Source: Burkholderiaceae bacterium
GTDB taxonomy: Bacteria; Pseudomonadota; Gammaproteobacteria; Burkholderiales; Burkholderiaceae_E
Length of the DNA: 36,521 bases
Direction: 5' to 3'
Assembly: GCA_024711155.1 (NCBI GenBank)
Contig: JANJTK010000193.1
Coordinates: 1-36,521, forward strand
A program made the position numbers and the translations under genes. Below are positions 6,802-29,982 of this stretch, one piece after another (position 1 is the first letter of the stretch; the number at the start of each line of letters is the position of its first letter). Under the pieces are notes generated by a model. That model had not been told where the DNA came from. It saw only the letters and a program-made list of their open reading frames with translations, and did not search any database.

Positions 6802-7134
6802 TTGGGCTACATCATCAACGGTGTCGAGGCCGAGGCCGACGACGAGGGATTCCTGCTGGAGGCCGACTTCAGCGAAGAGGCGGCGCGCGCGATCGCGCAG
6901 GCCGAGGGCATCGAACTCGGCGACGAGCACTGGCTCGTCGTCGCCTACCTGCGCGAGCGCTTCCAGGAGGACGGTCACACGCCGAACTTCCGCGCCATGG
7001 TCAAGGACTTCGACGAGGCGCATCCGGGAACCGACTGGAAGACCCGGCTCTACGAGCTGTTCCCGAACCAGCCGGCGCGGCAGGGCGCGCGGGTCGCCGG
7101 ACTCACGAAGCCGTTCGGCAAGGGCGGTTACTAG
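6802..7134 (+). CDS. DsrC/TusE-family protein lacking both C-terminal cysteines
   Basis: TTG start; GYIINGVEAEADDEGFL, LSxEHW-like ELGDEHWLVVAYLRERF, YELFPNQPARQGARVAGLTKPFGKGGY align with DsrC/TusE; no Cys anywhere in the 110 aa. Confidence 0.85.
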   Translation: MGYIINGVEAEADDEGFLLEADFSEEAARAIAQAEGIELGDEHWLVVAYLRERFQEDGHTPNFRAMVKDFDEAHPGTDWKTRLYELFPNQPARQGARVAGLTKPFGKGGY

Positions 7135-7166: not shown

Positions 7167-7181
7167 TACCCGTAGAGGGTA
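7167..7181. promoter_or_regulatory. Perfect inverted repeat upstream of tusA (site 2)
   Basis: TACCC-GTAGA-GGGTA. Confidence 0.5.
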
Positions 7182-7293: not shown

Positions 7294-7521
7294 ATGAATT
7301 TCGACAAGGAACTCGACGCGCGCGGACTGAACTGCCCGCTGCCGATCATCAAGACGAAGAAGGCACTCAACGACCTCGGCGCGGGCCAGGTGCTGAAGGT
7401 GACGTCGACCGACGCCGGTTCGGTCAAGGACATGGAAGCCTTCGCGAAGCAGACCGGCAACGAATTGATGGAGTCCGCGCAGGAGGCGGGCGGATACGTG
7501 TTCTTCATCAGGAAGAAGTAG
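7294..7521 (+). CDS. tusA: Sulfur carrier protein TusA
   Basis: 75 aa; LDARGLNCPLPIIKTKKAL contains the CPxP motif of the TusA/SirA family. Confidence 0.94.
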   Translation: MNFDKELDARGLNCPLPIIKTKKALNDLGAGQVLKVTSTDAGSVKDMEAFAKQTGNELMESAQEAGGYVFFIRKK

Positions 7522-7567: not shown

Positions 7568-8038
7568 ATGACACAGAAGAAGATGGCGATCATCGCGACC
7601 AAGGGCACGCTCGACTGGGCGTATCCGCCCCTGATCCTGTCTTCGACGGCCGCGGCGCTCGGTTACGAGGTGCAGGTCTTCTGCACGTTCTACGGCCTGT
7701 CGCTGCTGCGCAAGGACCTGAGCGGCATCAAGATCAGCCCGCTGGCGAATCCCGCGATGCCGATGCCGATGCCGATGCCCGTGCTGGTGCAGGCGTTGCC
7801 CGGCATGGAGGCGATGGCCACCATGATGATGAAGAACAAGATGAAGGCCAAGGGTGTCGCCTCGCTCGACGAATTGCGCGGTCTGTGCGTCGAGGCCGGC
7901 GTCAAGTTCGTCGCCTGCCAGATGACCGTCGACCTGTTCGAGTTCGCGCCGTCCGAGTTCATCGACGGCATCGAGTTCGGCGGCGCGACGACCTTCCTCG
8001 AGTTCGCCGGCTCGTCCGACATTTCGCTCTACATCTGA
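7568..8038 (+). CDS. dsrE2: DsrE2-like (DsrE/F/H superfamily) sulfurtransferase
   Basis: MAIIATKGTLDWAYPPLILSSTAAALGYEV, Met-rich insertion, GVKFVACQMTVDLF with conserved Cys; directly downstream of tusA. Confidence 0.88.
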   Translation: MTQKKMAIIATKGTLDWAYPPLILSSTAAALGYEVQVFCTFYGLSLLRKDLSGIKISPLANPAMPMPMPMPVLVQALPGMEAMATMMMKNKMKAKGVASLDELRGLCVEAGVKFVACQMTVDLFEFAPSEFIDGIEFGGATTFLEFAGSSDISLYI

Positions 8039-8043
8039 AGCGG

Positions 8044-8436
8044 GTGGCCTTGGGCGCGCACTCCGGCCACGCGCGACGGGTCGTTCCGATCCGCGTCGTT
8101 GCGCCGGATGCACCCGCCGATGGCGCGTGCTCGGGCGCCGAGTCGTTCGCGCTGATGGTGCTGGGCGACTCGATGCTGCCCGAGTTCGCCGAGGGCGAGA
8201 TCATCGTCATCGAGCCCGACGGCCTGGCCACCGACGGCTCGTTCGTGCTCGCGCACTGCGACGGCGAGTGGATCTTTCGCCAGCTCGCGCGGCGCGACGA
8301 CGGCGGCTGGCGGCTGCGCGCGCTCAATCCTGCCTTTCCGGAGCTGCCGATCGACGACCTGTCGGCGGTGCGCGGCGTGATCATCCAGAAGTCGAAGCCC
8401 GGGCGTCGCCGCGCCTCCAGGTTCTACGTCGAGTGA
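8044..8436 (+). CDS. HTH-less S24/LexA-fold protein, probably non-catalytic
   Basis: GTG at 8044; ALMVLGDSMLPEFAEGEIIVIEPDGLATDGSFVLAHCDGEWIFRQL; Ser motif (GDSM) present but the position expected for Lys reads Arg; no HTH. Confidence 0.75.
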   Translation: MALGAHSGHARRVVPIRVVAPDAPADGACSGAESFALMVLGDSMLPEFAEGEIIVIEPDGLATDGSFVLAHCDGEWIFRQLARRDDGGWRLRALNPAFPELPIDDLSAVRGVIIQKSKPGRRRASRFYVE

Positions 8437-9527
8437 ACGGCGGCGACGCGGCGGCGGCGCACCGCGCCGCGCTGGCGGCCGCGGTACAGCGCAACTGCGA
8501 TCGCGCCGATGCCGCGCACGCGCAGGAGCTCTCGCTGTGCGTTTACCTGTTGCAGATGCGCGAGTTCTTCCGCTGGGAACGCGCGCTGCCGCTGGGTGAC
8601 GCGCCCGACCGCGCCGAAGTGGGGCGCTGGATCGCCGCGCGCGAGGCGCGCTGGGACGCGCTGGATGCCGCCGCGCATGCGGGGCACGCCGGATTCGAAC
8701 CGTTGCCGCTCTCCGGCGGGATCGACCCGTTCGACGAGTCCGCCGCCAACGAGGCGCTCGCGCCGCTCGGCCTCGCCTACGGCGCAGGGCTCGGATTCAT
8801 GCGCCGCCCGGAGTTCGTGCTGGGTGAAATCCGCTCGATCGAGCGGCGTGACGGCGCGACCATCGTCGTGCTCGGCCAGGAGCTGGCGCGCGGCATGAAT
8901 CCGCCGCTGGCCGCGAGCCGCGGCGACCGCGTGCTGGTGCGCGGCGACGTGCTGCGCCGCTGGCTCGCGACGCGGCTCGAGCTGTGGTCGCAGCGGCCCC
9001 GGGCCGGCGAAGCCGCCGGCGCGCTCGCCGAGCCGTGGCGGTTCGAAGGCGAACCCGGCGCGGCGCTCGAGCGCATCGCTGTCGCCGAGACCGGGACGCT
9101 GATCCTGCACGAGCTCGGCGAGCGGCGTGCCGGCGCGCTGCTCGGTCCGCAGTGGGAGGCGATGCTGACGGCGCTCGACGACCGGCGTGCCGAGATCGTC
9201 GCGCGCGCGCTGCGCGACCTGATCGCGGATTGCGAGTCGACGCTGCCGGCGCTGCTTGCGCGCGCCGAGCACGTGTCGCTGCACTTCTGGTTCGCGAACC
9301 TGGAAGGCATGCGCGGCCTGCTGGGCGGCGCGCTGCGCGCGGGCTATCGGGCATGGTGCGACGCGGGCGCCGCGCCCGCGGATGCGCCGGCGCTGGCCGC
9401 GATCGTGCGCGACCAGCGCGAGCATTGGCTGGGCGAAGCGCGGCGCCTGCTCGCCGCGTTCCGCGAGCGCGGGGTGCCCGGCGTGGTTCACGATGCGCGC
9501 GAGCTCGCGTCGCGGGTGCAGACGTAG
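8433..9527 (+). CDS. Conserved hypothetical protein of the sulfur-relay cluster
   Basis: GTG at 8433 overlapping the S24 gene stop; long + frame co-directional with the sulfur cluster; product class not recognised with certainty. Confidence 0.7.
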   Translation: MNGGDAAAAHRAALAAAVQRNCDRADAAHAQELSLCVYLLQMREFFRWERALPLGDAPDRAEVGRWIAAREARWDALDAAAHAGHAGFEPLPLSGGIDPFDESAANEALAPLGLAYGAGLGFMRRPEFVLGEIRSIERRDGATIVVLGQELARGMNPPLAASRGDRVLVRGDVLRRWLATRLELWSQRPRAGEAAGALAEPWRFEGEPGAALERIAVAETGTLILHELGERRAGALLGPQWEAMLTALDDRRAEIVARALRDLIADCESTLPALLARAEHVSLHFWFANLEGMRGLLGGALRAGYRAWCDAGAAPADAPALAAIVRDQREHWLGEARRLLAAFRERGVPGVVHDARELASRVQT

Positions 9528-14533: not shown

Positions 14534-14649
14534 GCCGCTGCGGGGCTTTCCGGCGAGACTGCCCACGGGCGGCGCCCGCCGGGCGCGGCCGCATCCACCG
14601 GGCCGGGCGTGCGCGACGGCGCGGTGACGTGACACAGGGCGGAGTTTCC

Positions 14650-15933
14650 ATGAGCGATCCCATCGCGACCAGCCAGACGATCCTCGTCGTCGGGGGCGGC
14701 ATCAGCGGCGTCTCGGCGGCGCTGGAGGCGGCCGAGTGCGGCAAGGAGGTGGTGCTGGTCGAGCGCGGCCCCACGCTGGGCGGCCGCACCTCCCGGCTGT
14801 ACCGCTACTTCCCGAAGATGTGCCACCCGACCTGCGGGCTGGAGATCAACCTGCGCCGCCTGAAGGCCAACCCGAACGTGCGCGTGATGACGATGGCCGA
14901 GGTCGTCGGCGTCACGGGGCGGCGCGGCGACTTCCGCGTCGCGCTGAAGTTGCACCCGCGCTACGTGAACGAGCGCTGCACCGCCTGCGGCGAATGCGCG
15001 GCCGCCGTGAGCAGCGAGATCCCCGACCCGCACAACTACGGCATGCGCAAGGTCAAGGCGGCCTACCTGCCGCATCCGATGGCGTACCCGCAGCGCTACG
15101 TGGTCGACCCGTCGATCGCCGGCACCGACGAGGGCCGGCGCGCGCAGGCGGCGTGCCGCTACGGCGCGATCGACCTCGGCATGAAGGAGGAGACGGTCGA
15201 GCTTGCGGTCGGCGCGATCGTCTGGGCGACCGGCTGGCGACCCTACGACGCGGCGAAGATCCAGCCGTACGGCTACGGGCGCTTCCCGAACGTGATCACC
15301 AGCGTCGAGTTCGAGCGCCTCGCCGATCCGTCGGGCCCGACCGGCGGACGGCTGCTGCGGCCCTCGGACGGCCGCGAGGCGAAGAACGTCGCGTTCATCC
15401 AGTGCGCGGGCTCGCGCGACGAGAACCACCTGCGGCACTGCTCGCGCATCTGCTGCATGGCCTCGCTGAAGCAGACGCAGTACGTGCGCGAATCGGGCGG
15501 CGACGGCGCGCGCTCGACGATCTACTACATCGACATCCGCGCGATCGACCGCTTCGAGGACTTCTACCAGATGGTGCAGAGGGACGAGACGGTCCGGTTC
15601 GTGAAGTCGAAGGTCGCGCGCATCGCGCAGGACCGCGCCAGCGGCAACCTGGTGCTGCACGGCGTCGACACCGAGGGCTATCACCGCTACGCGAGCGAGC
15701 ACGACCTGGTCGTGCTTGCGGTCGGCATGCAGCCCGAGTCGCTCGGCGTCGAGCTTCCCGCCGACGTCGTGGTCGACTCGTCGGGTTTCATCGAGGGTTC
15801 GCCCGACCACGGGCTGGTGGGCGCGGGCGCGGCATCGAGTCCGCTCGACGTCAACCGGTCGGTGCAGAGCGCGACCGGCGCCGTGCTGCACGCGATGAGC
15901 GCGGTGCGGCGCAGCGCAGCGGCGGAGGCATAG
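14650..15933 (+). CDS. qmoA: QmoA (HdrA-like flavoprotein)
   Basis: ATG at 14650 preceded by GGCGGAG; ILVVGGGISGVSAALEAAECGKEVVLVERGPTLGGR; CTACGEC; HLRHCSRICCMASLKQ; followed by qmoB. Confidence 0.9.
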   Translation: MSDPIATSQTILVVGGGISGVSAALEAAECGKEVVLVERGPTLGGRTSRLYRYFPKMCHPTCGLEINLRRLKANPNVRVMTMAEVVGVTGRRGDFRVALKLHPRYVNERCTACGECAAAVSSEIPDPHNYGMRKVKAAYLPHPMAYPQRYVVDPSIAGTDEGRRAQAACRYGAIDLGMKEETVELAVGAIVWATGWRPYDAAKIQPYGYGRFPNVITSVEFERLADPSGPTGGRLLRPSDGREAKNVAFIQCAGSRDENHLRHCSRICCMASLKQTQYVRESGGDGARSTIYYIDIRAIDRFEDFYQMVQRDETVRFVKSKVARIAQDRASGNLVLHGVDTEGYHRYASEHDLVVLAVGMQPESLGVELPADVVVDSSGFIEGSPDHGLVGAGAASSPLDVNRSVQSATGAVLHAMSAVRRSAAAEA

Positions 15934-15934
15934 C

Positions 15935-18139
15935 GTGGCAGAGAACAAGTTCGCAGCGTACTTCTGCACCGGTTGCGGCATCGGCGACGCGGTCGACGTC
16001 GGCCAGCTGCAGAGAATCGCGCAGAAGGAAGGCAAGATGCAGCTCGTGCGCACGCACGAGGTGCTGTGCAGCGCCGAGGGCGTGCAGGCGATCCGCGACG
16101 ACATCGCCAACGAGGCGGTGACGCACGTGATGATCGGCGCCTGCTCGCGGCGAGCCAAGACCGAGGCATTCCGCTTCCCGGACAACGCGATGGCGCGCGC
16201 CAACCTGCGCGAGGGCGTGGTCTGGGTCGTCGCGCAGGGCGACGAGCATGCCGAGGTCCGCCAGGAGATGGCCGACGACTACGTGCGGATGGGCTGCGCC
16301 GAGTTGAAGAGGATGCGCGTGCCGGAGCCGAACCCGGACGCGGTGACGCAGCGTCGCGTTCTCGTCGTCGGCGGCGGACCCTCGGGCCTCGCGGCGGCGC
16401 TCGCGGTGGCCGATGCGGGCTACGAGGCGGTGGTGGTCGAGAAGACTGCCGCGCTGGGCGGCTGGGCGGCGCGGCTGCACCGCCGGGTGCCCGATCGCGC
16501 GCCGTACGCCGAGCCCCAGCCGACCGGCATCGAGGAGACGATCGCGAAGGTGACGGCGCATCCGCTGATCACCGTGCACACGTCGGCGACGATCGCCGAG
16601 ACCTCGGGCGCGCCCGGCCGCTTCGAGGTCAGGGTCGCGCACGAGAGCGGGGCGCTGGTCGAGGAGAAGGTCGGCGCGATCGTGCAGGCGACCGGCTCGG
16701 CCAACTACCCGATCGAGCGGCTGCCCGAACTCGGCGGCGGCGCCCCGAACGTCGTCGACCAGGCCGGACTCGAGGATCTCGCGCGCGCCGCCGACGGCGG
16801 GCCGATCCGCCGCGCCGACGGCCGCGAAATCAGGAGCGTCGTCTTCGTGCAGTGCGCCGGCCAGCGCGACACGACCGGCACGCACCTGCCGTACTGCTCG
16901 GGGCACTGCTGCGCCACCAGCATCAAGCAGGCGATGTACTTCAAGCAGGCCAACCCGGCGGTCGACACGGTCGTCGCGTACACCGACCTGCGGGTGCCGG
17001 GGATGGGCGAGGACTTCTACCGCAGCGCGCAGGACAAGGGCGTCACGTTCACGAAGGCGAGCGTCGCGAAAGTCGACGCGACCGCCGAGGGCTGCACGGT
17101 CGCCCTGCGCGACCTGATCCTCGACGAGGAGACGTCGGTGGCGGCCGACCTCGTCGTGCTCGCCACCGGCCAGGTGCCCAACGGCGGCGTCGACATCGAC
17201 CTTCCGGAGGACGACCCGGCGCGCGACAGCCAGCCGTCGATCCTGAACCTGAGCTATCGCCAGGGCAAGGACATGCCGAAGCTGCGCCACGGCTTCGCCG
17301 ACTCGCACTTCATCTGCTTCCCGTACGAGACGCGCCGCACCGGCATCTACGCCGCCGGCCCGGTGCGCCGGCCGATGGACATGGCGCAGGCGATCGACGA
17401 CGCGGAGGGCGCGGCGCTGAAGGCGATCCAGGCGGTCGAGAACGCCGGGCGCGGGCGCGCGGCGCACCCGCGCTCGGGCGACCTGTCGTACCCGAAGGTG
17501 CGGCTCGAGGGTTGCACGCAGTGCAAGCGCTGCACGGTCGAGTGCCCGTTCGGCGCGATCGACGAGGACGAGCGGCGTTTTCCGAAGTTCAACGAGTCGC
17601 GCTGCCGGCGCTGCGGCACCTGCATGGGCGCCTGCCCGGTGCGCGTGATCTCGTTCGACAACTACTCGGTCGACACCGTCGGCAGCCAGATCAAGGCGGT
17701 CGACATGCCCGACGAGTTCTCTGAGCGGCCGCGCATCCTGCTGCTCGCGTGCGAGAACGACGCCTACCCGGCGCTCGACATGGCGGGCGTCTCGCGCACG
17801 ACCTACTCGGCGTTCGTGCGCGTGATCCCGGTGCGCTGCCTCGGGTCGGTCAACACGATCTGGATCACCGACGCGCTGAACTCCGGCTACGACGGCGTGA
17901 TGATGATGGGCTGCAAGAAGGGCGACGACTACCAGTGCCACTTCGTCAAGGGCTCGGAACTCGCCTTCTACCGGATGAGCAAGATCGACGACACGCTGCA
18001 GCAGCTCGGGCTCGAGAAGGAGCGCGTCACCAGCTGCGAGGTCGCGATCACCGACAGCCAGCGCGTCGCGCAGCTGATCAACGACTACGCGGCCCAGATC
18101 AAGGAGCTTGGCATGTCGCCGATGAAGGGGTTCGCCTGA
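15935..18139 (+). CDS. qmoB: QmoB (HdrA-like flavoprotein with ferredoxin and C-terminal MvhD-like domains)
   Basis: 734 aa; CTGCGIGDAVDVGQL N-terminus, VLVVGGGPSGLAAALAV, CTQCKRCTVECP and CRRCGTCMGACP clusters, MvhD-like tail (ILLLACENDAYPALDMAG...MMGCKKGDDYQC). Confidence 0.92.
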   Translation: MAENKFAAYFCTGCGIGDAVDVGQLQRIAQKEGKMQLVRTHEVLCSAEGVQAIRDDIANEAVTHVMIGACSRRAKTEAFRFPDNAMARANLREGVVWVVAQGDEHAEVRQEMADDYVRMGCAELKRMRVPEPNPDAVTQRRVLVVGGGPSGLAAALAVADAGYEAVVVEKTAALGGWAARLHRRVPDRAPYAEPQPTGIEETIAKVTAHPLITVHTSATIAETSGAPGRFEVRVAHESGALVEEKVGAIVQATGSANYPIERLPELGGGAPNVVDQAGLEDLARAADGGPIRRADGREIRSVVFVQCAGQRDTTGTHLPYCSGHCCATSIKQAMYFKQANPAVDTVVAYTDLRVPGMGEDFYRSAQDKGVTFTKASVAKVDATAEGCTVALRDLILDEETSVAADLVVLATGQVPNGGVDIDLPEDDPARDSQPSILNLSYRQGKDMPKLRHGFADSHFICFPYETRRTGIYAAGPVRRPMDMAQAIDDAEGAALKAIQAVENAGRGRAAHPRSGDLSYPKVRLEGCTQCKRCTVECPFGAIDEDERRFPKFNESRCRRCGTCMGACPVRVISFDNYSVDTVGSQIKAVDMPDEFSERPRILLLACENDAYPALDMAGVSRTTYSAFVRVIPVRCLGSVNTIWITDALNSGYDGVMMMGCKKGDDYQCHFVKGSELAFYRMSKIDDTLQQLGLEKERVTSCEVAITDSQRVAQLINDYAAQIKELGMSPMKGFA

Positions 18140-18792
18140 TGGACACGCAGGCAGGCAAGGCCACGGCGGCCGCGAGCGCCAACGCCGGCGCGCTGGCGCG
18201 CTACCGCGGCGACTTCCTGAGGGAAGTCGAGGAGCGCGTCGAGGAAGGCGAGTGGGTGAAGATGTGCATGCAGTGCGGCGTGTGCGCCGGCTCGTGCCCG
18301 TTCGGCCCGCACTGGGAACACTCGCCGCAGAAGCTGTTCATGATGATCCGCGCCGGCAAGCGCGACGAGGTGCTGGGCTCGGACGCGATGTTCATGTGCA
18401 CCTCGTGCTACAACTGCGTCGTGCGCTGCCCGCGCAAGCTGCCGATCACGCACATCATGCACGGGCTGGCCAACTACGCGCACCGGCTCGGGCTCGCGCC
18501 CAAGGGACAGCCGACGCGCGAGTTCGCGACGATGTTCTGGAACAACCTCGCGCGCACCGGCCGCATCAACGAGCTCAGGCTCACCCTCGGCCACTACTTC
18601 CGCAACGGTTTTGCGGCCGGGATCCGGGAGGCGCTGACGATGAAGGCCGTCGGGCTCGGGCTGCTGAAGGCGAAGCGCCTGAACCCGCTCGAGATCGTCG
18701 GCGGCCACGGCGTCAAGGACGTGAAGGGACTGCACGCGATCATCGCCAGGGCGCGCGAGATCGAGGACCGCAAGCAGGGCCTGCGGTCCTGA
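18139..18792 (+). CDS. hdrC: HdrC-like ferredoxin subunit (soluble, no HdrE membrane domain)
   Basis: ATG at 18139 overlapping the qmoB stop; CMQCGVCAGSCPFGPH and CTSCYNCVVRCPRKLP; 217 aa without transmembrane segments. Confidence 0.9.
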   Translation: MDTQAGKATAAASANAGALARYRGDFLREVEERVEEGEWVKMCMQCGVCAGSCPFGPHWEHSPQKLFMMIRAGKRDEVLGSDAMFMCTSCYNCVVRCPRKLPITHIMHGLANYAHRLGLAPKGQPTREFATMFWNNLARTGRINELRLTLGHYFRNGFAAGIREALTMKAVGLGLLKAKRLNPLEIVGGHGVKDVKGLHAIIARAREIEDRKQGLRS

Positions 18793-18805
18793 CGGGAAGG
18801 CAAAG

Positions 18806-19717
18806 ATGGCAAAGAAACAGTACGCGTTCTATCCGGGTTGCTCGTCGCAGCGCAAGGCGTCGGCGTCGAACTACCTGACGTCGGTCGAATCGATGTGCCG
18901 CACGCTCGACGTGCAGCTCACCGAGATCCCGGACTGGAACTGCTGCAGCGCGTCGGTCGGCTACTGCGAGGGCGGCGAGCTGCCGCGGCTGGCGCTCAAC
19001 GCGCGCAACTTCGCGCTCTCCGAGAAGCACCTGCCGGGCCAGACGATGGTGGCCACCTGCGCCGCCTGCTGGCTGAGCGCGCGCGAGTCGAAGGAGCGGC
19101 TCGAGCACAGCCCGCAGCTGATGAAGGAAGCCAACGAGGCGCTCGCCGAGGGCGGGCTCCAGTACCAGGGCCAGGTCCAGGTCAAGCACATGGTCGAGGT
19201 GCTGATCGAGGACCTCGGCTACGAGGAACTGAAGCGTCCGGTCGTCAAGCAGCTCGAAGGGCTCAAGTTCGCCAGCTACATCGGCTGCCAGACCAACCGG
19301 CCGTTCGGCATCGACGGCGAGTCCTTCGAGAACCCGGTCTACCTCGACCGGATGGTCGAGGCGGTCGGCGCCGAGGCGATCGCCGACTACGAGCAGAAGG
19401 TCAGCTGCTGCGGCGGCGCGCTCGCGTTCTCCGAGCCCGACAAGAGCCAGAAGCAGATCCGCGACATCGTCGAGTCCGCCTACGACCAGGGCGCCGACAT
19501 GATCGTCACGCCGTGCCCGCTGTGCCAGGCCAACGTCGAGGTCTACCAGTCCGAGATCAACCGCAGGCAGGGCACGAAGCTCGAGATGCCGGTGCTCTAC
19601 TACTCGCAACTGCTCACGGTCGCCTACGGCGGCAGCGCGAAGGACGCCGGCCTCGACGGCCAGCTGATCCGCGCCACCCGGCTCGAGGAGATCGCGGCGG
19701 CGCCGGCGAAGAAGTAG
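18806..19717 (+). CDS. hdrB: HdrB-like CCG-domain protein
   Basis: Two CCG domains: YPGCSS...WNCCSASVGYC...CAACW and YIGCQTNRP...VSCCGGAL...CPLC. Confidence 0.92.
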   Translation: MAKKQYAFYPGCSSQRKASASNYLTSVESMCRTLDVQLTEIPDWNCCSASVGYCEGGELPRLALNARNFALSEKHLPGQTMVATCAACWLSARESKERLEHSPQLMKEANEALAEGGLQYQGQVQVKHMVEVLIEDLGYEELKRPVVKQLEGLKFASYIGCQTNRPFGIDGESFENPVYLDRMVEAVGAEAIADYEQKVSCCGGALAFSEPDKSQKQIRDIVESAYDQGADMIVTPCPLCQANVEVYQSEINRRQGTKLEMPVLYYSQLLTVAYGGSAKDAGLDGQLIRATRLEEIAAAPAKK

Positions 19718-19732
19718 CCGCCGCCGGAATCA

Positions 19733-19750
19733 GCCGCCGCAGCAGGCGGC
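19733..19750 (+). terminator. Candidate stem-loop downstream of hdrB
   Basis: GCCGCC-GCAGCA-GGCGGC; no T-tract. Confidence 0.35.
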
Positions 19751-19816
19751 CGCCCCGCTCGACTCGGTGCGACGCCGGGTCTAGACTGTCCGCACGATGG
19801 CGCGTCGCCGCCGTCG

Positions 19817-20419
19817 ATGCGACCCTTCATCGTCATGAGTGCCGTGATCACCGAAACCGCCCCGACCCGGTTCAAGCTCACCGTCGAGCAGTACCACCGG
19901 ATGGGCGAAGCCGGGATCCTGCACGAGGACGACCGGGTCGAACTCATCGACGGGGAACTGATCAGGATGGCGCCGATCGGAAGCCTGCACGGCGGGCTGG
20001 TGTCGCGGCTCACCCGACTGCTGGTCGAGCGCTCGGCGGGCCGCGCGGTCGTGTCGCCGCAGAACCCGGTGATCCTCAGCAACGTCACCGAGCCGCAGCC
20101 CGACCTGTCGGTGCTGCGCTGGCGGGCCGACGACTACATGAGCGTGGTGCCGGTGGCGGCCGACGCGTTGCTCGTGGTCGAGGTGGCCGACTCCACGCTG
20201 CGCTACGACCGCGACGTCAAGCTGCGCTACTACGCGCAGAGCGGCGTGCCCGAAGTCTGGATCGTCGACGCGCGCCGGCGGCAACTGCTGGTCTACCGCG
20301 AGCCGGCCGGACAGGGTTACCGCGAGTCGAGCGTGCTGCTCGAGGGCGAGGCGGCGGCCTGCGCTGCGCTGCCGGGGCTGCGGATCGAGGTTCGCGAGCT
20401 GTTCGCGACCGGGGCCTGA
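19817..20419 (+). CDS. Uma2-family (DUF820, putative nuclease-fold) protein
   Basis: LTVEQYHRMGEAGILHEDDRVELIDGELIRMAPIGSLHG, PDLSVLR, LLVVEVADSTLRYDRDVKLRYYAQSGVPEVWIVD; ATG at 19835 is an alternative start. Confidence 0.9.
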   Translation: MRPFIVMSAVITETAPTRFKLTVEQYHRMGEAGILHEDDRVELIDGELIRMAPIGSLHGGLVSRLTRLLVERSAGRAVVSPQNPVILSNVTEPQPDLSVLRWRADDYMSVVPVAADALLVVEVADSTLRYDRDVKLRYYAQSGVPEVWIVDARRRQLLVYREPAGQGYRESSVLLEGEAAACAALPGLRIEVRELFATGA

Positions 20420-20459
20420 GTGCCCGCGGGTTCGCCGCGGACCGGCCCCCGGGTCCCGC

Positions 20460-21353
20460 TCAGTTCTCGTCGTACATCCCGTCATCGCGCGCCGCGCGCT
20501 CGGCCGCCTCGCGTTCGAGCCGCGCCGCCTTCTCGTGCGCACGCTGCGCGCGCGCCTGCGCGGCGTCCGCGCGCAGCGGGATCGTCGCCTCGCCGAACAG
20601 CACCTGGCGCAGGAAGCGGAAGCCGAACTGCCTCAGCTTCGTGTCGTCGAGCAGCGTCTCGTGGAGCTCCTCGTCCGGAAGGTCGAACAGCGCGCTGAAG
20701 CCGTCGCTCGCGACGAACTGGCGGAAGCGGTCGACGTCGTAGCAGGCCATGAAGAAGAGTTGCAGGCTGCGCTTCGACGGCTTGCCCACCGTCGGGCCGG
20801 ACGACTTCTTCTTCAGCACCAGCTGGCGCCAGCCGCGCCCGAGCTCGTCGTATTCGGCCACGCCCTGCTCGGCGCGGTACTCGTCGATCGTCAGGCTGCG
20901 CGGCTCGTCGTGCCCGAGGCAGTGCGGCTCCTTCACGAGCGCGTAGGCCTCGCGGTCGGTGTACTCGTCCTGGTGGCGCATCGACAGCAGCGCGACCGGG
21001 TAGTAGCGGCACGCCGTCGGCCGGTCCTCGTAGACGCTGCAGCCCGCCGCAGTCATGAAGCGGCACGCGGTCCCGCCGTCGACCGGGCGCAGCTTCACCC
21101 CGGCGAGACCGTCCTTCTCGAGCTCGTACGGCACCGTGTAGCGGTCGAGGAACTCGGTCGACGACAGGTCGAGCCGGTGCTTGAGCCGCAGGATGTCGAC
21201 CGGCGTGAGCGAGATGTCGATGTTGCTGCAGCACGCGTTCCAGCAGGCGATGCCGGGGCGGCAGCGGAACCGGATGGTGCGCGAGCCGTCCATCATCTCC
21301 GGCGCGACCGGGCTGGACGGGAAGGGCAGGCTCTGGGGGTCGGGACTGGTCAT
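20460..21353 (-). CDS. YkgJ-type cysteine-cluster protein (putative Zn/Fe chelation)
   Basis: CRPGIACWNACCSNIDISLTPVDILRLKHRL, GCSVYEDRPTACRYYPVALL motifs. Confidence 0.88.
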   Translation of the reverse strand: MTSPDPQSLPFPSSPVAPEMMDGSRTIRFRCRPGIACWNACCSNIDISLTPVDILRLKHRLDLSSTEFLDRYTVPYELEKDGLAGVKLRPVDGGTACRFMTAAGCSVYEDRPTACRYYPVALLSMRHQDEYTDREAYALVKEPHCLGHDEPRSLTIDEYRAEQGVAEYDELGRGWRQLVLKKKSSGPTVGKPSKRSLQLFFMACYDVDRFRQFVASDGFSALFDLPDEELHETLLDDTKLRQFGFRFLRQVLFGEATIPLRADAAQARAQRAHEKAARLEREAAERAARDDGMYDEN

Positions 21354-21363
21354 CGTCGCATCG

Positions 21364-21404
21364 AAAAAAAAGCGGCCGGGGCCCGCTTGCGCGGACGCCC
21401 GGCC
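21364..21404 (-). terminator. Rho-independent terminator downstream of aprA
   Basis: Minus strand: GGCCGGG...CCGC-GCAA-GCGG...CCCGGCC-GC followed by T8 (A8 at 21364-21371 on + strand). Confidence 0.85.
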
Positions 21405-21433
21405 ATGAGCTTACGCCAGACGGGGCGCGCAGC

Positions 21434-23467
21434 TCAGTGCGCGGCCGGCTTGAAGAGCTTGGACTTGTCGACCAGGTCGACGTGCTTGCGCTTGAAGCAG
21501 GTCCACTTCTTCGCGTCCCGGTCGTAGATCGAGTTCACGAAGCACTTCCAGTTCTCCTCGTCGACGAAGTTCTTGTCGGCGCGATAGTAGAAGCCCGGGT
21601 AGCGGGACTCCTCGCGGAACTGGATGTGCTTCATGTGCGCCTCGGCCGTGATGATCCGGTGGTAGTTCTCCCAGGCGCGCAGCAGCTCGTGGAGGTCCTT
21701 CGCCCGCATCTTCAGCGAGTCCTCCTTGAGCATCTCGAGCTTCTCTTCCGCGACCGCGAGCATGTGCCCGTTGGTCGTGTAGTAGGTGGCGACGCCCGCG
21801 ACGTACTCGTCCATGATCTTCTGCAGCCGGAACTGCAGCATCTTCGGCGTGATGTAGTGCGGGTTGACGTCGATCGCGGTCGTGTAGTCCTTGTGCTGCA
21901 GGAAGTTGCGCACCGGCCGGTAGATCTCGTCGGCGAGCGCCGCCGGGTCGGCGTCGAGCTCGGGCTTCCAGTCCTTGTTGTCGAGTGCGAACCTGACCAT
22001 CGACTTGGCGGCGATCCGCCCCTCGGCGTGCGAGCCCGACGAGAACTTGTGGCCCGACGCGCCCACGCCGTCACCGGCCGTGAACAGGCCCTTGACCGTG
22101 GTCATCGAGCGGTAGCCCCAGCTCCAGCCGCGCGGCAGGTGCCCCGGCACGCCGTCGTAGTCGCCCTCGTCGGCGGTCGGCGCGCCGAGGTCCTCCGGAC
22201 CCGACACCCAGATGCCGCAGCAGCCCGAGTGCGAACCCAGCAGGTACGGCTCGGTGGGCATCAGTTCGGAGTTGCGCTTCTCGGGCTCGATGTTCTCGCC
22301 GACCCAGATCCCGCACTGGCCGATGCACATGTCGAGGAAGTCTTCCCACGCCTCGGCTTCGAGGTGCTTGACCTCCTTCGGCGTGAGCGTCTCGCGCAGC
22401 TTCGCGAGCGCGCTGACGGTGTCCATGTAGATCGGGCCGCGGCCCTCGCGCATCTCCTTGAGCATCAGGTGGTTGCGCAGGCACGAGGCCGGCACCGCGG
22501 CCTGCCCGTACGGCGGGTAGTCGTCGAGCAGCGCCTTGTTGCGCGTCATGTAGTCTTCGCCGAGCGCGTTGGTCGCCTTGGCCTTGAACAGCAGGAACCA
22601 GGCGCCCACCGGGCCGTAGCCGTCCTTGAAACGCGCCGGGACGAAGCGGTTCTCCATCATCGTCAGCTCGGCGCCGGCTTCGGCGGCCATCGCGTAGGTC
22701 GAGCCGGCGTTCCACACCGGGTACCACGCGCGGCCGGTGCCTTCGCCCACCGAGCGGGGGCGGAACAGGTTCACGCAGCCGCCGGCGGCGAGCAGGATCG
22801 CCTTCGCCTTGTAGATGTAGATCTTGTTCTCGCGCACCGAGAAGCCGACCGCGCCGGCGACGCGGCTCGGGTCGTTCTTGTCGTTGACGAGCTTGACGAT
22901 GAACACGCGCTCCTGGATGCGGTCCAGGCCGAGCGCCTTCTTGGCGGCTTCGGCGACGATCCACTTGTAGGACTCGCCGTTGATCATGATCTGCCACTTG
23001 CCCGAGCGCACCGGCTTGCCGCCGTCCCTGAGCGCCGGGATGCCCTCGCGCTGCGCCTCGGCGCCGTCGTGGCGCACGCCGTCGGCGTCGGTCTTCCAGA
23101 TCGGCAGGCCCCACTCCTCGAACAGGTGCACCGACTCGTCGACGTGCCGGCCGAGGTCGTAGGCCAGGTCGTCGCGCGTGATGCCCATCAGGTCGTTCGA
23201 GACCATGCGCGCGTAGTCGGCCGGATCGAGGTCCGGGCCGATGTAGGTGTTGATCGCCGACAGGCCCTGCGCGACCGCGCCGGAGCGGTCCATCGCGGCC
23301 TTGTCGACCAGCTTGATGCGCAGTTCGCGGCCGGTCTCGGCCTTGGCCGCCTCGGCCCAGCGCATCATCTCGTACGCGGCGCCGGAGCAAGCCATGCCGC
23401 CGCCGATCAGCAGGATGTCGAGTTCTTCCTCGACGATCTGCGGGTTGCCGAAAGTTCCATCAGACAT
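21434..23467 (-). CDS. aprA: Adenylylsulfate (APS) reductase alpha subunit AprA
   Basis: 677 aa; LDILLIGGGMACSGAAYEMMRW, INTYIGPDLDPADYARMVSNDLMGI, SGCCGIWVSGPEDL, GDGVGASGHKFSSGSHAEGR; adjacent aprB and sat. Confidence 0.97.
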   Translation of the reverse strand: MSDGTFGNPQIVEEELDILLIGGGMACSGAAYEMMRWAEAAKAETGRELRIKLVDKAAMDRSGAVAQGLSAINTYIGPDLDPADYARMVSNDLMGITRDDLAYDLGRHVDESVHLFEEWGLPIWKTDADGVRHDGAEAQREGIPALRDGGKPVRSGKWQIMINGESYKWIVAEAAKKALGLDRIQERVFIVKLVNDKNDPSRVAGAVGFSVRENKIYIYKAKAILLAAGGCVNLFRPRSVGEGTGRAWYPVWNAGSTYAMAAEAGAELTMMENRFVPARFKDGYGPVGAWFLLFKAKATNALGEDYMTRNKALLDDYPPYGQAAVPASCLRNHLMLKEMREGRGPIYMDTVSALAKLRETLTPKEVKHLEAEAWEDFLDMCIGQCGIWVGENIEPEKRNSELMPTEPYLLGSHSGCCGIWVSGPEDLGAPTADEGDYDGVPGHLPRGWSWGYRSMTTVKGLFTAGDGVGASGHKFSSGSHAEGRIAAKSMVRFALDNKDWKPELDADPAALADEIYRPVRNFLQHKDYTTAIDVNPHYITPKMLQFRLQKIMDEYVAGVATYYTTNGHMLAVAEEKLEMLKEDSLKMRAKDLHELLRAWENYHRIITAEAHMKHIQFREESRYPGFYYRADKNFVDEENWKCFVNSIYDRDAKKWTCFKRKHVDLVDKSKLFKPAAH

Positions 23468-23509
23468 CTGTCGTTCCTCGATTGGTTCGTTCGCTTTGTG
23501 CGGGCGCGA

Positions 23510-23980
23510 TCACTTGCGGCGGATCAGCTCGTCGGGGTTGCCGGCGCGATAGCCGCCCGACGACGTGAAGAAGCCGGACTGGCCGATGTCGGCGAGCTTC
23601 GGCATCGTCTTGCCGCCGTAGGGATCGATCGAGCCCTCGGGCGTGGTGCGGATCGGGAACTTGAAGCGCTTCATCGTGCCGTTGCGGAACTTGATCGTCC
23701 ACATGATCGAGTCCGATCCGCGCAGCGGCTGGACCGAGCCGCCCAGCGGGACGATGTCGGCGTAGTGGCGCACCTCGATCGCGCCCTGCGGGCAGATCTT
23801 GACGCACGAGTAGCACTCCCAGCACTGCTCGGGCTCCTGGTTGTACGCCCTCATCGCGTGGCCGGTCGCCGAGCCGTCGCGATCGAGCATCATCAGGTCG
23901 TGCGGACAGATGTACATGCAGGCCGTCTTGTCCTGGCCCTTGCATCCGTCGCACTTTTCGGTACGTACGTAGGTTGGCAT
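23510..23980 (-). CDS. aprB: APS reductase beta subunit AprB
   Basis: MPTYVRTEKCDGCKGQDKTACMYICPHDLMML, EQCWECYSCVKICPQGAIEVR. Confidence 0.97.
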   Translation of the reverse strand: MPTYVRTEKCDGCKGQDKTACMYICPHDLMMLDRDGSATGHAMRAYNQEPEQCWECYSCVKICPQGAIEVRHYADIVPLGGSVQPLRGSDSIMWTIKFRNGTMKRFKFPIRTTPEGSIDPYGGKTMPKLADIGQSGFFTSSGGYRAGNPDELIRRK

Positions 23981-24034
23981 TGCTCCTCCTGGGAAAATGA
24001 GCGGTTTGCGAAAGAATCGTTGCGCAGCGCGGGG

Positions 24035-25249
24035 TCAGCGCGCCGAGTGGCCGGCGAGCTTGACCTCCACCTTCTCCGAAGCGTCGAGTCCCGCGTAGTA
24101 CTCGCGCAGCACGGCGAGCACCTCGGGGCGGCTGAACTCCGCCGGCACTTCCGATCCTTCGGAGAGCCACTTGCGAAGCTTGGTACCCGAGACGAGCAGC
24201 CGGTCGGCCTCGTCGTGCGGGCAGGTGCGGGCGGAAGCCATCCCGCCGCACTTGTAGCACCAGAAAGTCCAGTCGATCTTCATCGGCTGCGTCTGCAGCG
24301 CGTCCTTCGGGATCTGGTCGAACACGTGGTGCGCGTCGAAGGGGCCGTAGTAGCTGCCCACGCCGGCGTGGTCGCGCCCGACGATCTGGTGCGAGCAGCC
24401 GTAGTTCTGGCGAAACAGCGCGTGCAGCAGCGCCTCGCGCGGTCCGGCGTAGCGCATGTCGAGCGGATAGCCGGCCTGGACAATGGTCTTCTTCTGGAAG
24501 TAGCCGTCGACCAGCACCGAGATCGCGTGCGTGCGCACCTCGGCCGGAATGTCGCCGGGCTTGAGCGCGCCCAGCAGCGAGTGCACCAGCACGCCGTCGC
24601 TGACCTCGATCGCGACCTTCGCCAGGTATTCGTGCGAGCGGTGCATCGGATTTCGGGTCTGGAACGCCGCGACCTTCGACCAGCCGAGCGACTCGAACAA
24701 CGCGCGCGTCTGCGCCGGCGTCATGAAGAGCTCGCCGTACTTCTCGACGAAGCCGCCGGTCGACAGCACCTTGACCGGCCCGGCGAGGTTGAACCCGCCC
24801 TGCGCCATCACCATCTTCACGCCCGGATGCTCGGGATCGGTGGTGCGGAACACCGTTGCGCACTCGTGCGCCTTGTCGATGGCGTACTTCTCGGTGACCT
24901 TCATCGTCGCGAGCACCGAGCCGTCGTCGGGATCGGCCAGCGCGAGGTCGGCGCCGACCCCGATCGCCTGCGCGGCCCCGGCACTCGCCGACAGCGTGAT
25001 CGGGATCGGCCAGAACAGCCCGCTCGCCGTTCGCATGCCGTCGCATACGCCCTGCCAGTCGGCGTGCGTCATGAAGCCGTCGAGCGGCGTGAAGCCGCCG
25101 ATGCCCATCATGATCAGGTCGCCCTTCTCGCGCGAGCTCACCTCGAGCCGCGGCAGCGTGGCGGCGCGCGCGAGTTCGGCAGCGCGCGCTTCGCCTTCGA
25201 GCAGCAGCGGCCGCAGCCCGCCGCCTCCGTGCGGATCAACCAGCGCCAT
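24035..25249 (-). CDS. sat: Sulfate adenylyltransferase (ATP sulfurylase)
   Basis: [18 protein letters not shown] and [23 protein letters not shown]; start at 25249 preceded by GGGAGGAG. Confidence 0.96.
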
Positions 25250-25329
25250 GTCCCGTTCTCCTCCCTGCATTCATCGTTTTTCCTTCAACATACCCGAAGC
25301 GCGCCGCGAGTCCTTGACCCGGCTCACGA

Positions 25330-26328
25330 TCACGCGACCGCCGAGTAATAGAGGTTCTGCGGATGGTTCGCCTCGGCAAAGAAGAACCACCGCTCGGCGA
25401 CCAGGCCCGCCATCTGCACCGCGAACGCCAGCGCCAGCAGCGGCGTCGACGGCGCGGCCATCGCCGCCGCGAGCAGCGCCGCCGGCAGCACGAAAGCCGC
25501 CGCCAGGAAAGCCCACTTGACCCAGCGCAGCGTGCCTGGCGGGCGGCCGTGGAAGAACTCGTGCGTGTTGAACGAGCCGGCCTGGAATCCCATCGAGGTC
25601 TGCACGATGCGCGGATGGCGGATGCCGATCGCCGTCTGCAGCGTCGACTTCGGCTTCAGGCGCGCGTTGCGCGCGAGCGACGCGCCGCGGCTGGCCAGCC
25701 CGAGCAGCGTGAACGCCAGCGCGACCGCGGTCAGCAGCCCCGTCAGGTCGGGCGCCGCCCGGCTCGCGAGCGCTGCCGCGAGCGTGAACCCGGACGCGCA
25801 TCCGAGCAGCGTGAAGTTCAGCAGCGTGAGCGGGCTGTGCCATTCGCGCAGGAACGGCAGGCACGCGTAGATCATCGCGGTGCAGACGAACAGCGCCAGC
25901 GCGAGCAGCGCCCCGAGCAGCCCGATCACGGTCGCCGGGCCGATCGCGGCGGCCGGGCCGATGGCGCCGCTGCCGGGCGCTGCCGAGGCCGTCGGCGGCC
26001 AGCCGAGCCATTGCGCCACGCCCCAGGCGAACACGGCGCCCATGAACGCCGGGAGCACGATCACCTCGCGCGACAGCCACGAGGTGCGCCACTGCGCGAT
26101 CGCGCGCCAGGCGCGCTCCGGGCGGCCGAGGTGGAAGAACGACGCGACGAGGCCGGCGCCGCACAGCACCAGCGCGATCGCGCTGCCGGCGACGTCGAAC
26201 CCCGCATCCGGCCGCGGCGCGACCAGTCCCGACAGCGCGAGCACCTGCGCCACGAAGAGCGCCAGGAACAGGCCCTGCCCGGCACCGGTCAGCGTCGTCA
26301 GCAGGATCACCGAAGCTTCGGGTCGCAC
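25330..26328 (-). CDS. soeC: SoeC-like membrane anchor (DmsC family)
   Basis: Polytopic; FHLGRPERAWRAIAQWRTSWLSREV typical of DmsC; co-directional with soeB and soeA. Confidence 0.87.
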   Translation of the reverse strand: MRPEASVILLTTLTGAGQGLFLALFVAQVLALSGLVAPRPDAGFDVAGSAIALVLCGAGLVASFFHLGRPERAWRAIAQWRTSWLSREVIVLPAFMGAVFAWGVAQWLGWPPTASAAPGSGAIGPAAAIGPATVIGLLGALLALALFVCTAMIYACLPFLREWHSPLTLLNFTLLGCASGFTLAAALASRAAPDLTGLLTAVALAFTLLGLASRGASLARNARLKPKSTLQTAIGIRHPRIVQTSMGFQAGSFNTHEFFHGRPPGTLRWVKWAFLAAAFVLPAALLAAAMAAPSTPLLALAFAVQMAGLVAERWFFFAEANHPQNLYYSAVA

Positions 26329-26341
26329 GCGTCGTCTCCGC

Positions 26342-27073
26342 TCACCAGGACGTGACGTCGTCGAGCGCCGGATCCGCGCGCGACGGCCGCGGCAGCAGGC
26401 CGTCGACCTTCAGCGGGTTGTCGGCGCGCTCGAGTTCGTCCGGATGCACGCGCAGCGCGGTGCGCCGGCGCGGCAGGTAATGGTTCGACGGCCGGGTGCC
26501 CCACTCGGGCATCAGCGCGTAGCCGGCGTGGTCGCGGATCGCCTGCGAAACCACCGAATCGGGGTCGTGGATGTCGCCGAACAGCCGGGCGCTGGTCGGG
26601 CAGGCGAGCACGCAGGCCGGCTTGCGCTCGGCCTCCGGGCGCGTCGTGTCGTAGATGCGGTCGACGCACAGCGTGCACTTGGTCATCACCTTGCGCGGCG
26701 GGTCGATCTCGCGGGCGCCGTACGGGCAGGCCCACGAGCAGTACTTGCAGCCGATGCACTTGTCGTAGTCGACCAGCACGATGCCGTCGGCGGCGCGCTT
26801 GTAACTCGCGCCGGTCGGGCACACCGGGACGCACGGCGGGTCCTCGCAGTGCAGGCAGGACTTCGGAAAGTGAACCGTCTGCGTGTCCGGGAACTCGCCG
26901 ACCTCGAAGGTCTGGACCCGGTTGAAGAACGCGCCGCCCGGGTCCGCGTCGTAGGGATTGACGTCTGCCAGCGGACCGGCCGCGCCCGACGTGTTCCACT
27001 GCTTGCAGCTCGTCACGCACGCGTGGCAGCCGACGCAGACGTTGAGGTCGATGACCAGCGCGAGTTGGGTCAC
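26342..27073 (-). CDS. soeB: SoeB-like [4Fe-4S] ferredoxin subunit (DmsB family)
   Basis: GTG at 27073 overlapping the soeA stop; CVGCHACVTSCKQWN, CLHCEDPPCVPVCPTGA, CIGCKYCSWACPYGAR, CTLCVDR clusters. Confidence 0.9.
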   Translation of the reverse strand: MTQLALVIDLNVCVGCHACVTSCKQWNTSGAAGPLADVNPYDADPGGAFFNRVQTFEVGEFPDTQTVHFPKSCLHCEDPPCVPVCPTGASYKRAADGIVLVDYDKCIGCKYCSWACPYGAREIDPPRKVMTKCTLCVDRIYDTTRPEAERKPACVLACPTSARLFGDIHDPDSVVSQAIRDHAGYALMPEWGTRPSNHYLPRRRTALRVHPDELERADNPLKVDGLLPRPSRADPALDDVTSW

Positions 27074-29982
27074 CGCCGGCTCCCCGTGCCCGCGAACCAG
27101 GCCTGCATGCGCGGCCGCCGTGCGGCGCGCGTGCCGGGGGCGGGCGGCACCGGCTCGAACTGCGGCGACGTCTGCGCCGGCTCGGCGTCGTCGGCGCGAT
27201 AGATGCGCACCCTGACGTCGTACCAGGCGGCCTGGCCGGTGACCGGATCGGAGTTCGACACCGGGCCCTCGCCGCCGGCGCCCGGCAGTTCCTCCGAAAT
27301 CAGGTGGTTCAGCAGGAAGCCGCGCCGCGACTCGTTGGCGTCGGGCGCGAGGCCCCAGGCGCCCGAGGCCTTGCCGATCGCGTTCCAGGTCCAGACGGTG
27401 CCGGGCTCGACGGCCTCGGAATAGCCGGCCCGGCAGCGCACCCGACCCCACTGCGATTCGACCCACATCCAGCCGCCGTCCTCGATGCCGTGCGCGCGCG
27501 CGACCCGCGGGTTCACGTAAAGCACGTTCTCGGTGTGAATCTGCCGCAGCCACGCGTTCTGCGAATCCCACGAGTGGTACATCGCCATCGGCCGCTGCGT
27601 GACCGCGGCGAGCGGGTAGCGCGCGCGGTCGGTGCGCTGCGCCTCGAGCGGCTCGTAGTGGAAGGGCAGCGGATCGAAGAATTCATCGATGCGCCGCCGC
27701 AGCCGCTCGGGCGGCTTGCGCGACGCGCCCTTGCCGCGCGCGGCCAGGCGGAAGCGCTGCAGCACTTCCGAGTACAAGTGGACGAGGATCGGCTCGGCGT
27801 AGCGCGTGATGCGGTTGCGCTGCGACCACTCGAGGTAGCCCTTGTTCCAGTTGCGCATGTACTGGTACGACGGCGGCAGCTTGTAGTGGTAGACGCAGTC
27901 GTTCTGCGCGTACATCTCCCACTGGCGCGGATTGGGTTCGCCGCGCATGAACTTCTCTCCGCCCTTGCCGCGCCACCCCGCCAGGAACCCGATGCCCGAG
28001 CCCGGCTCGGTCTCGTAGTTGACGATGAAATCCGGGTAGTCGCGAAACTTGCGGCTGCCGTCGCGGCGCACGAAGGCCGGCAGCTTCAGGCGGCTGCCCA
28101 GCTCGATCAGCACTTCCTGGAACGGCTTGCACTCCCCGGTCGGCGGCAGCACCGGAATGCGCACCGAATCGACCGGGCCGTCGAACTCCGAGATCGGGCG
28201 ATCGAGCATCGACATCACGTCGTGGCGCTCGAGGTAGGTGGTGTCGGGCAGCACCAGGTCGGCGAACGCCGTGGTCTCGGACTGGAACGCGTCGGCCACG
28301 ACGATGAACGGAATCCGGTACTCGCCGTCCTCCCCGCGGTCGGTGAGCATCTGGCGCACGCTCGACGTGTTCATCGTCGAGTTCCACGCCATGTTCGCCA
28401 TGAACAGCATCAGCGTGTCGATCGGATACGGGTCGCCGCGCCACGCGTTGGTGATGACGTTGTGCATCAGCCCGTGCACCGACAGCGGGTACTCCCACGA
28501 GAACGCCTTGTCGATCCGGACCGGCTCGCCCGCCGCGTCGACGAACAGGTCGTCGGGCTCGGCGGGCCAGCCGAGCGCAAGTCCGTCGAGCGGGTGGCCA
28601 GGCTGCACCGCGAGCGGCGTGTTCGGCGACTTCGCGCACGGCGGAATCGGGCGCGGAAACGGCGCCTTGTGGCGGAAGCCGCCGGGGCGGTCGATCGTGC
28701 CCAGCAGCGACATCAGGATCGCCAGCGCGCGAATCGTGTGGAAGCCGTTCGAGTGCGCAGCGAGGCCGCGCATCGCGTGGAACGCCACCGGATTGCCGGT
28801 GACGGTGTCGTGTTCCTTGCCCCACGCGTCGGTCCACGCGATCGGCAGTTCGATGCGCTGGTCGCGCGCCGTGATGCCCATCTCGTGCGCGAGCCGGCGG
28901 ATGGTCGCGGCCGGAATGCCGGTGATGCCTGCCGCCCACTCCGGTGTGTAAGCCTCCACGCGCTCGCGCAGCAGCTGGAACGCGGGCTTGACCGGCGTGC
29001 CGTCGGGCAGCCTGAACTCGCCCAGCAGGTACGGATCGGCGCCCTCGGAATGCGTGACCACCGGGCGGTCGGTGACCCGGTCCCACCACAGCTTGTCCTG
29101 CGGGTCGTAGCAGTCTTCCTCGACCGGCACTTCGGTGCGCGCGAACAGGCCGAAACCGTCGTGCGACTCGTCCACGTCGACCAGCTGCCCGGCGTTGCTG
29201 TGTCGCACCAGGAAGTCGCGGTCGTACAGGCCGAGCGAGATGATCTCGTGGATCAGCGCGAGCAGCAGCGCGCCGTCGGTTCCGGGACGGATCGGCACCC
29301 ACTCGTCGGCGATGGCCGAGTAGCCGGTGCGCACCGGGTTGATCGAGATGAAGCGGCCGCCGGCGCGCTTGAACTTCGAGATCGCGATCTTCAGCGGATT
29401 CGAGTGGTGGTCCTCGGCGGTGCCGATCATCACGAACAACCGCGCGCGCTCGAGGTCGGGGCCGCCGAATTCCCAGAACGAGCCGCCGATCGTGTAGATC
29501 ATGCCGGCGGCCATGTTGACCGAGCAGAAGCCGCCGTGCGCGGCGTAGTTCGGCGTGCCGAACTGGCGCGCGAACAGGCCGGTGAGCGCCTGCATCTGGT
29601 CGCGCCCGGTGAAGAGCGCGAACTTCTTCGGATCGGCGGCGCGGATGCGCGCGAGGCGCTCCTCCAGCAGCGCGAACGCCTGCTCCCACGAGATCTCGTC
29701 GAACTGCCCGCTGCCGCGCTCGGCGCCGGGCTTGCGCAGCAGCGGCCTGGTCAGTCGCGCCGGCGAATACTGCTTCATGATGCCCGACGAGCCCTTGGCG
29801 CAGATCACGCCCTGGTTCAGCGGGTGCTCCGGATTGCCCTCGATGTAGCGCACCTCGCCGTTGCGCAGGTGCACCCGGATGCCGCATCGGCAGGCGCACA
29901 TGTAGCAGGTGGTGGTGCGGATCTCCGTGCCGGCGTCCGGCAGCGGCGCGCGGGCGGGATCGTGAATCGGCTCTGGTGGCAT
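27070..29982 (-). CDS. soeA: SoeA-like molybdopterin oxidoreductase, cytoplasmic sulfite dehydrogenase catalytic subunit
   Basis: 970 aa; TTCYMCACRCGIRVHLRNGEVRYIEGNPEHPLNQGVICAKG; no Tat signal; soeB and soeC follow. Confidence 0.88.
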   Translation of the reverse strand: MPPEPIHDPARAPLPDAGTEIRTTTCYMCACRCGIRVHLRNGEVRYIEGNPEHPLNQGVICAKGSSGIMKQYSPARLTRPLLRKPGAERGSGQFDEISWEQAFALLEERLARIRAADPKKFALFTGRDQMQALTGLFARQFGTPNYAAHGGFCSVNMAAGMIYTIGGSFWEFGGPDLERARLFVMIGTAEDHHSNPLKIAISKFKRAGGRFISINPVRTGYSAIADEWVPIRPGTDGALLLALIHEIISLGLYDRDFLVRHSNAGQLVDVDESHDGFGLFARTEVPVEEDCYDPQDKLWWDRVTDRPVVTHSEGADPYLLGEFRLPDGTPVKPAFQLLRERVEAYTPEWAAGITGIPAATIRRLAHEMGITARDQRIELPIAWTDAWGKEHDTVTGNPVAFHAMRGLAAHSNGFHTIRALAILMSLLGTIDRPGGFRHKAPFPRPIPPCAKSPNTPLAVQPGHPLDGLALGWPAEPDDLFVDAAGEPVRIDKAFSWEYPLSVHGLMHNVITNAWRGDPYPIDTLMLFMANMAWNSTMNTSSVRQMLTDRGEDGEYRIPFIVVADAFQSETTAFADLVLPDTTYLERHDVMSMLDRPISEFDGPVDSVRIPVLPPTGECKPFQEVLIELGSRLKLPAFVRRDGSRKFRDYPDFIVNYETEPGSGIGFLAGWRGKGGEKFMRGEPNPRQWEMYAQNDCVYHYKLPPSYQYMRNWNKGYLEWSQRNRITRYAEPILVHLYSEVLQRFRLAARGKGASRKPPERLRRRIDEFFDPLPFHYEPLEAQRTDRARYPLAAVTQRPMAMYHSWDSQNAWLRQIHTENVLYVNPRVARAHGIEDGGWMWVESQWGRVRCRAGYSEAVEPGTVWTWNAIGKASGAWGLAPDANESRRGFLLNHLISEELPGAGGEGPVSNSDPVTGQAAWYDVRVRIYRADDAEPAQTSPQFEPVPPAPGTRAARRPRMQAWFAGTGSRR

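Follow-up and report, generated by a model that had tools for sequence, protein, structure and literature searches.

The window, a stretch of 36,521 nt, is contig C95 of a 2.95-Mb MAG of a Burkholderiaceae bacterium. Between positions 6802 and 9527 it carries a gene for a cysteine-free relative of DsrC, referred to here as the KGGY protein after its C-terminal residues, and a set of genes downstream of it:

6802..7134, + strand: KGGY-tailed cysteine-free DsrC paralog, 110 aa, TTG start (profiles, predicted DsrC fold, clade)
7087..7089, + strand: Ala96 codon, where DsrC has its inner Cys (CysB) (alignment; 15 of 112 family members have Cys here)
7120..7131, + strand: codons of the invariant tail K107-G108-G109-Y110, which replaces the GCV/GCI end of DsrC (alignment; pLDDT <50)
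7167..7181, no strand assigned: inverted repeat TACCC-N5-GGGTA between the KGGY gene and tusA, present also in the genome's own dsrA divergent intergenic region
7294..7521, + strand: tusA, sulfur carrier (PF01206, 87.1 bits)
7568..8038, + strand: dsrE2, sulfur carrier (NF047629, 276 bits, cut-off 210; PF13686)
8047..8436, + strand: S24-like protein, homologous span, start codon uncertain (PF00717; tblastn span)
8484..9527, + strand: DUF6866 / Sfum_1244-family protein, start codon uncertain (tblastn from relative L036, whose own protein scores 343 bits against NF045620)

The KGGY reading frame extends from a TTG at 6802 to a stop codon at 7132-7134 and encodes no cysteine; its start is backed by relatives, in which this codon is TTG, GTG or ATG. 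The protein scores 103.9 bits against Pfam DsrC PF04358 (cut-off 24.9) and 79.7 bits against NCBIfam TIGR03342 (cut-off 53.5), and profiles, predicted fold and tree agree in placing it in the DsrC/TusE superfamily. The first-pass annotation had proposed this membership together with the coordinates, the length, the lack of cysteine and the adjoining tusA-dsrE2 pair, all of which were reproduced. E. coli-type TusE, which serves tRNA 2-thiolation, shares with the window protein the superfamily and a non-Cys residue at the CysB position, but was rejected as its identity, with a score of 69.7 bits against the TusE equivalog NF008562 (cut-off 191) and an end, GKGGY, that differs from the KCI of E. 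coli TusE and lacks its penultimate Cys. Nor is it DsrC in the strict sense, as its C-terminal arm has neither of the two cysteines and it does not group with two-Cys DsrC in the tree. As stated at first pass, it has no thiol on which a Cys persulfide or trisulfide could be carried. A sequencing error hiding C-terminal cysteines was ruled out, as was a pseudogene: eleven relatives found by BLAST-type homology searches have the same C-terminus, PFGKGGY or something close to it, and dN/dS against close relatives is 0.09-0.28, corresponding to purifying selection.

The first-pass reading of the two redox positions as Ala and Lys/Gly stands for the inner one (Ala96), and for the outer one (CysA) in that it aligns with Gly109 or, if read ungapped, with Lys107, followed by an extended tail. 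Across 112 family sequences, K107, G109 and Y110 are 100% and G108 is 99% conserved, and GKGGY, a feature passed over at first pass, is the best-conserved stretch of the whole protein; Asn62, where DsrC has Ala, is conserved at 99%. The AlphaFold2 model has a mean pLDDT of 91.7 and drops below 50 only at residues 107-110, and it superimposes on solved DsrC-family structures with TM scores of 0.72-0.86 (0.82 for 1yx3 of Allochromatium vinosum, 0.86 for 1sau of Archaeoglobus fulgidus). The tail is thus predicted to be disordered and is nevertheless invariant, a combination that, in our reading, typically marks a segment for docking to a partner, and it probably docks into one. With the two DsrC proteins of these structures the KGGY protein has in common the fold, the length, the motifs LFP-P-KQ and AGL and the company of dsrAB; it differs in the absence of Cys, in the basic loop and arm, in the KGGY end and in forming a separate, coexisting clade.

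Relatives are encoded on 390 stretches of the GTDB collection. As one search of this collection used the tail as a pattern, the GKGGY ending in 80 of 80 of its sequences is partly by construction, and it is the profile and BLAST searches and the tree that carry the claim about the tail. Wider profile searches added to these a subtype with the ending LPESRRKGGY, from other Gammaproteobacteria, as well as a few sequences from other classes of the phylum. The two subtypes together make up a single clade, separate from DsrC, TusE and CysB-only forms (UFboot/SH-aLRT 100/92), and a tree rebuilt with the window protein included places it in this clade (SH-aLRT/UFboot 97/100). Members end in RKGGY or GKGGY, with one KAGY variant, as opposed to TGCV/TGCI in DsrC and KCI in TusE. 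The window protein is therefore one copy of a widespread family, and not an oddity of its genome or a broken gene. Beta-type KGGY genes occur in two stretches titled uncultured planctomycete (L054) and Rhizobium sp. (L089), both likely mis-binned. In a further stretch, another Cys-less DsrC-like protein, which lacks the KGGY tail and ends in LAGLLRTKGEH (L116:4269-4598), directly adjoins a KGGY gene.

Cysteine-free members of the superfamily have been met before. RspA-type DsrC paralogs are alike in having no cysteines, which are absent also from 48 of 80 close relatives of the window protein, and in occurring in sulfur oxidisers; a regulatory role has reportedly been proposed for them, in which the dsr promoter is bound through that part of the DsrC fold which resembles a helix-turn-helix. 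The resemblance to Cys-less DsrC paralogs noted at first pass is borne out. The sulfur oxidiser A. vinosum has four extra DsrC-family genes with no settled role (Alvin_0028, 0345, 0732 and 1508; PMC3368242, PMC11267869), which are comparable, at the level of description, as additional TusE/DsrC genes in an organism with dsr. Phage dsrC/tusE homologs that lack one or both cysteines are also on record (PMC8190135, PMC4164917); they differ from the KGGY gene in that no viral contig of IMG/VR held a relative of the window protein, and a viral origin was rejected on this ground. Among the papers searched, none joined DsrC with a KGGY signature, and for Cas6 with dsr those consulted had only ordinary mentions of CRISPR. 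Since Cys-less paralogs are already known, any novelty would lie in how sharply the clade is defined and in its Cas6-like companion, described below.

The KGGY gene is part of the dsr locus in the majority of the 80 named loci and is oriented away from dsrABEFHCMKL. There the genes follow one another as DUF6967, Cas6-like gene, KGGY gene, in many cases a tandem TusA or rhodanese, an unnamed protein of about 200 aa, for which no Pfam family was matched, and a TauD-like gene. In the lineage of the window the KGGY gene has different neighbours, a FadL-type gene on one side and tusA-dsrE2-S24-DUF6866 on the other. The first-pass annotation had implied that a Cys-less protein was out of place in a sulfur-transfer cluster; this does not hold, as the family regularly accompanies dsrAB and the position beside tusA-dsrE2 is a lineage-specific relocation, the Cas6-like gene having stayed at the dsr locus. 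A FadL/TodX-type outer-membrane gene is found directly upstream of the KGGY gene in relatives L035-L041; it was not found in the genome of the window, the MAG being 90.5% complete. The S24-like gene neighbours dsrE2 in those relatives of the lineage with enough contig. In the S24-like protein of the window the serine of GDSMLPEF is kept, and the expected Lys of the dyad appears to be Phe/Arg (FRQL), which by sequence would perhaps make it an inactive peptidase fold.

The genome encodes two more DsrC-family genes, both on contig C272. One is a normal two-Cys DsrC inside dsrABEFHCMKL, so the KGGY protein does not replace DsrC. The other, at the opposite end of this locus (L004:11113-11484, - strand), is a DsrC variant with the inner Cys only, ending in YVKQACKIAGMRKPRVWSTG; such a variant is kept in relatives L026 and L029-L034.

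Co-occurrence was evaluated in 399 Burkholderiales genomes, 87 with and 312 without dsrA. The KGGY gene is present in 79 of them, all of which have dsrA, and in none of the 312 dsrA-less genomes, which sets it apart from TusE; in 70 of the 79 carriers it lies within 10 kb of dsrA. Fisher's test gives p = 7e-75 for the KGGY gene, and all p values are below 1e-74, but these statistics ignore kinship; a stronger argument is the near-perfect match seen inside individual genera and families. Eight genomes of the sample, some of them incomplete MAGs, have dsrA and no KGGY gene, so Dsr does not generally require the protein. Co-localisation of this kind shows a shared pathway, not a mechanism.

The usual upstream neighbour belongs to the Cas6 family. 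The copy in the genome of the window is located at the dsr locus (L004:9336-9905, contig C272) and matches TIGR02807, annotated as type I-MYXAN Cas6, with 133.5 bits, above the cut-off, as does the copy of a relative. The family matches the Cas6 of a type I-B CAST complex both by sequence (8fcj, E 3e-35) and by predicted fold (8fcu, TM 0.87), and for the most part it retains the G-rich loop and a His close to the N-terminus. Cas6-like genes are present, next to dsrAB, in 80 of the 399 Burkholderiales genomes, all with dsrA, and in none of the dsrA-less ones; since they are confined to dsrA genomes there, the protein is probably not serving CRISPR, and TIGR02807 matches in sulfur oxidisers should not be taken for CRISPR. 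Presumably it binds RNA.

Both genes occur together in 76 of the 399 genomes, and in 71 of these the KGGY gene is directly behind the Cas6-like gene on the same strand at less than 1 kb, mostly 32-133 bp; three of these rows, with gaps of 524-667 bp, may hold a small gene in between. The pair was found in 15 of 15 gamma-type regions, a set that is not random, several having been chosen for a nearby DsrC gene. No Cas6-like gene was found in three KGGY-bearing members of the order (G247, G306, G335), nor within the 1.5 kb fetched around five KGGY members from other classes of the phylum. In the genome of the window the Cas6-like gene is on another contig than the KGGY gene. Because of this separation and the Cas6-less cases, we treat the adjacency as usual, not universal, and the Cas6-like protein as no more than a candidate partner in a possible pair.

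The designation of the KGGY gene as head of the cluster holds for its position; co-transcription with tusA is at most possible, since a gap of 159 bp with a conserved inverted repeat separates the two genes. The repeat TACCC-N5-GGGTA occurs once in the window, where none is expected by chance, and the only other site in the genome that fits the repeat together with its right flank (at most 2 mismatches) is in the dsrA/DUF6967 intergenic region (L004:8934-8948). With at most 1 mismatch it is present in 38 of 77 dsrA-divergent intergenic regions. With regard to a possible operon of the KGGY gene and tusA under one promoter, neither a sigma-70-like site nor a convincing terminator was found. This rare repeat, common to both places, ties tusA-dsrE2 to the dsr locus and suggests, on sequence grounds, that the two form one regulon, of which the repeat is a possible operator.

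Considering all of this, we favour the reading, with a probability of roughly 0.55, that the KGGY protein is a duplicated DsrC without sulfur chemistry, now a dedicated adaptor or regulator of reverse-Dsr sulfur oxidation. As it has lost its cysteines, is widespread, travels with the dsr genes and usually lies beside a Cas6-like gene, its role is probably regulatory and not one of sulfur carriage. The protein lacks both redox cysteines and is predicted to keep the DsrC fold, and its KGGY arm would dock into a partner pocket where the sulfur-loaded arm of DsrC would otherwise react. Adjacency makes the Cas6-like, presumably RNA-binding protein the first candidate partner; the second candidate is one of the relay proteins, either DsrEFH or, for this lineage, DsrE2/TusA. 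Such docking would serve as a signal or gate for the activity of Dsr or the expression of dsr, with no sulfur carried. Of the scaffold, decoy or regulatory roles considered at first pass, it is the regulatory or adaptor role that gains indirect support, while a pure decoy is disfavoured.

In a more specific and tentative form of this reading, the KGGY and Cas6-family proteins would constitute a two-part module found in sulfur oxidisers alone, in which a recruited CRISPR-type RNA binder controls dsr mRNA and the KGGY arm senses the state of the relay. If true, the cysteine-free DsrC would be the sensor subunit of this module, its arm reporting the state of the sulfur relay.

A decoy or competitive inhibitor would occupy the DsrC sites on DsrAB, DsrEFH or DsrK and so throttle flux. 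The predicted fold is that of DsrC, the core motif (LFP-P-(K/R)Q and AGL) is common to both proteins, and a true DsrC is always present too wherever the dsr locus is visible. The positively charged loop and the arm sequence of DsrC (KAIGKKLG-DKGN and PKPTGC), fixed at 98-100% in 60 two-Cys DsrC proteins, are however not kept, which argues against a pure decoy and makes it unlikely; the mean net charge of the loop at residues 64-81 falls from +5 in two-Cys DsrC to +0.4 in the KGGY family, so that the partner surface has changed. In addition, strong binding of DsrC to DsrEFH requires the outer Cys (PMC3397948).

That the protein is instead a structural subunit or scaffold of the adjoining TusA-DsrE2 relay would be in line with the FadL-KGGY-tusA-dsrE2-S24-DUF6866 order, which is conserved across the lineage, and with the rhodanese or TusA tandem that is often the next gene in dsr loci. 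Most members of the family are not beside dsrE2, though, and tusA has the inverted repeat upstream of it as its own, and we regard this role as distinctly unlikely. Also distinctly improbable is a transcriptional regulator of the RspA type: the confinement to dsrA-bearing genomes in the sampled order and the inverted repeat at both the dsr and tusA promoters would suit it, but the protein is strongly acidic (pI 4.6, net charge -10; family medians pI 4.8 and -8) and more so than DsrC, which argues against direct nucleic-acid binding, and LexA matches in the fold search were insignificant (E above 1).

A thiol-free sulfur carrier, with the Tyr removed and the Gly-Gly end loaded as thiocarboxylate, or with Lys107 modified, is very improbable. 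The KGGY end is invariant, and sulfur-carrier proteins with residues beyond Gly-Gly are generally known; the fold, however, is not ubiquitin-like, the terminal Tyr is itself invariant, and no E1-like or JAMM gene was seen among the conserved neighbours identified, a non-exhaustive set. A decaying, functionless duplicate, for which the loss of the catalytic cysteines might speak, is refuted by the dN/dS values, by a tail invariant across the class and by retention together with dsrA.

For annotation, many genomes list Cys-less DsrC paralogs as sulfur carriers despite their having no thiol for sulfur. With its invariant tail, its fixed place at dsr and its Cas6-like neighbour, the defined clade makes a testable part of reverse Dsr out of a vague "DsrC-like" entry, and for surveys the rule follows that a gene with a KGGY tail should not be counted as DsrC or TusE.

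The window as a whole is devoted to sulfur oxidation. Elsewhere in it, positions 14629-29982 form a sulfite-oxidation region with HdrA/Qmo-like subunits, an HdrB-like gene, aprBA (918 bits for aprA, 200 for aprB) and a molybdopterin oxidoreductase, the last possibly soeA.
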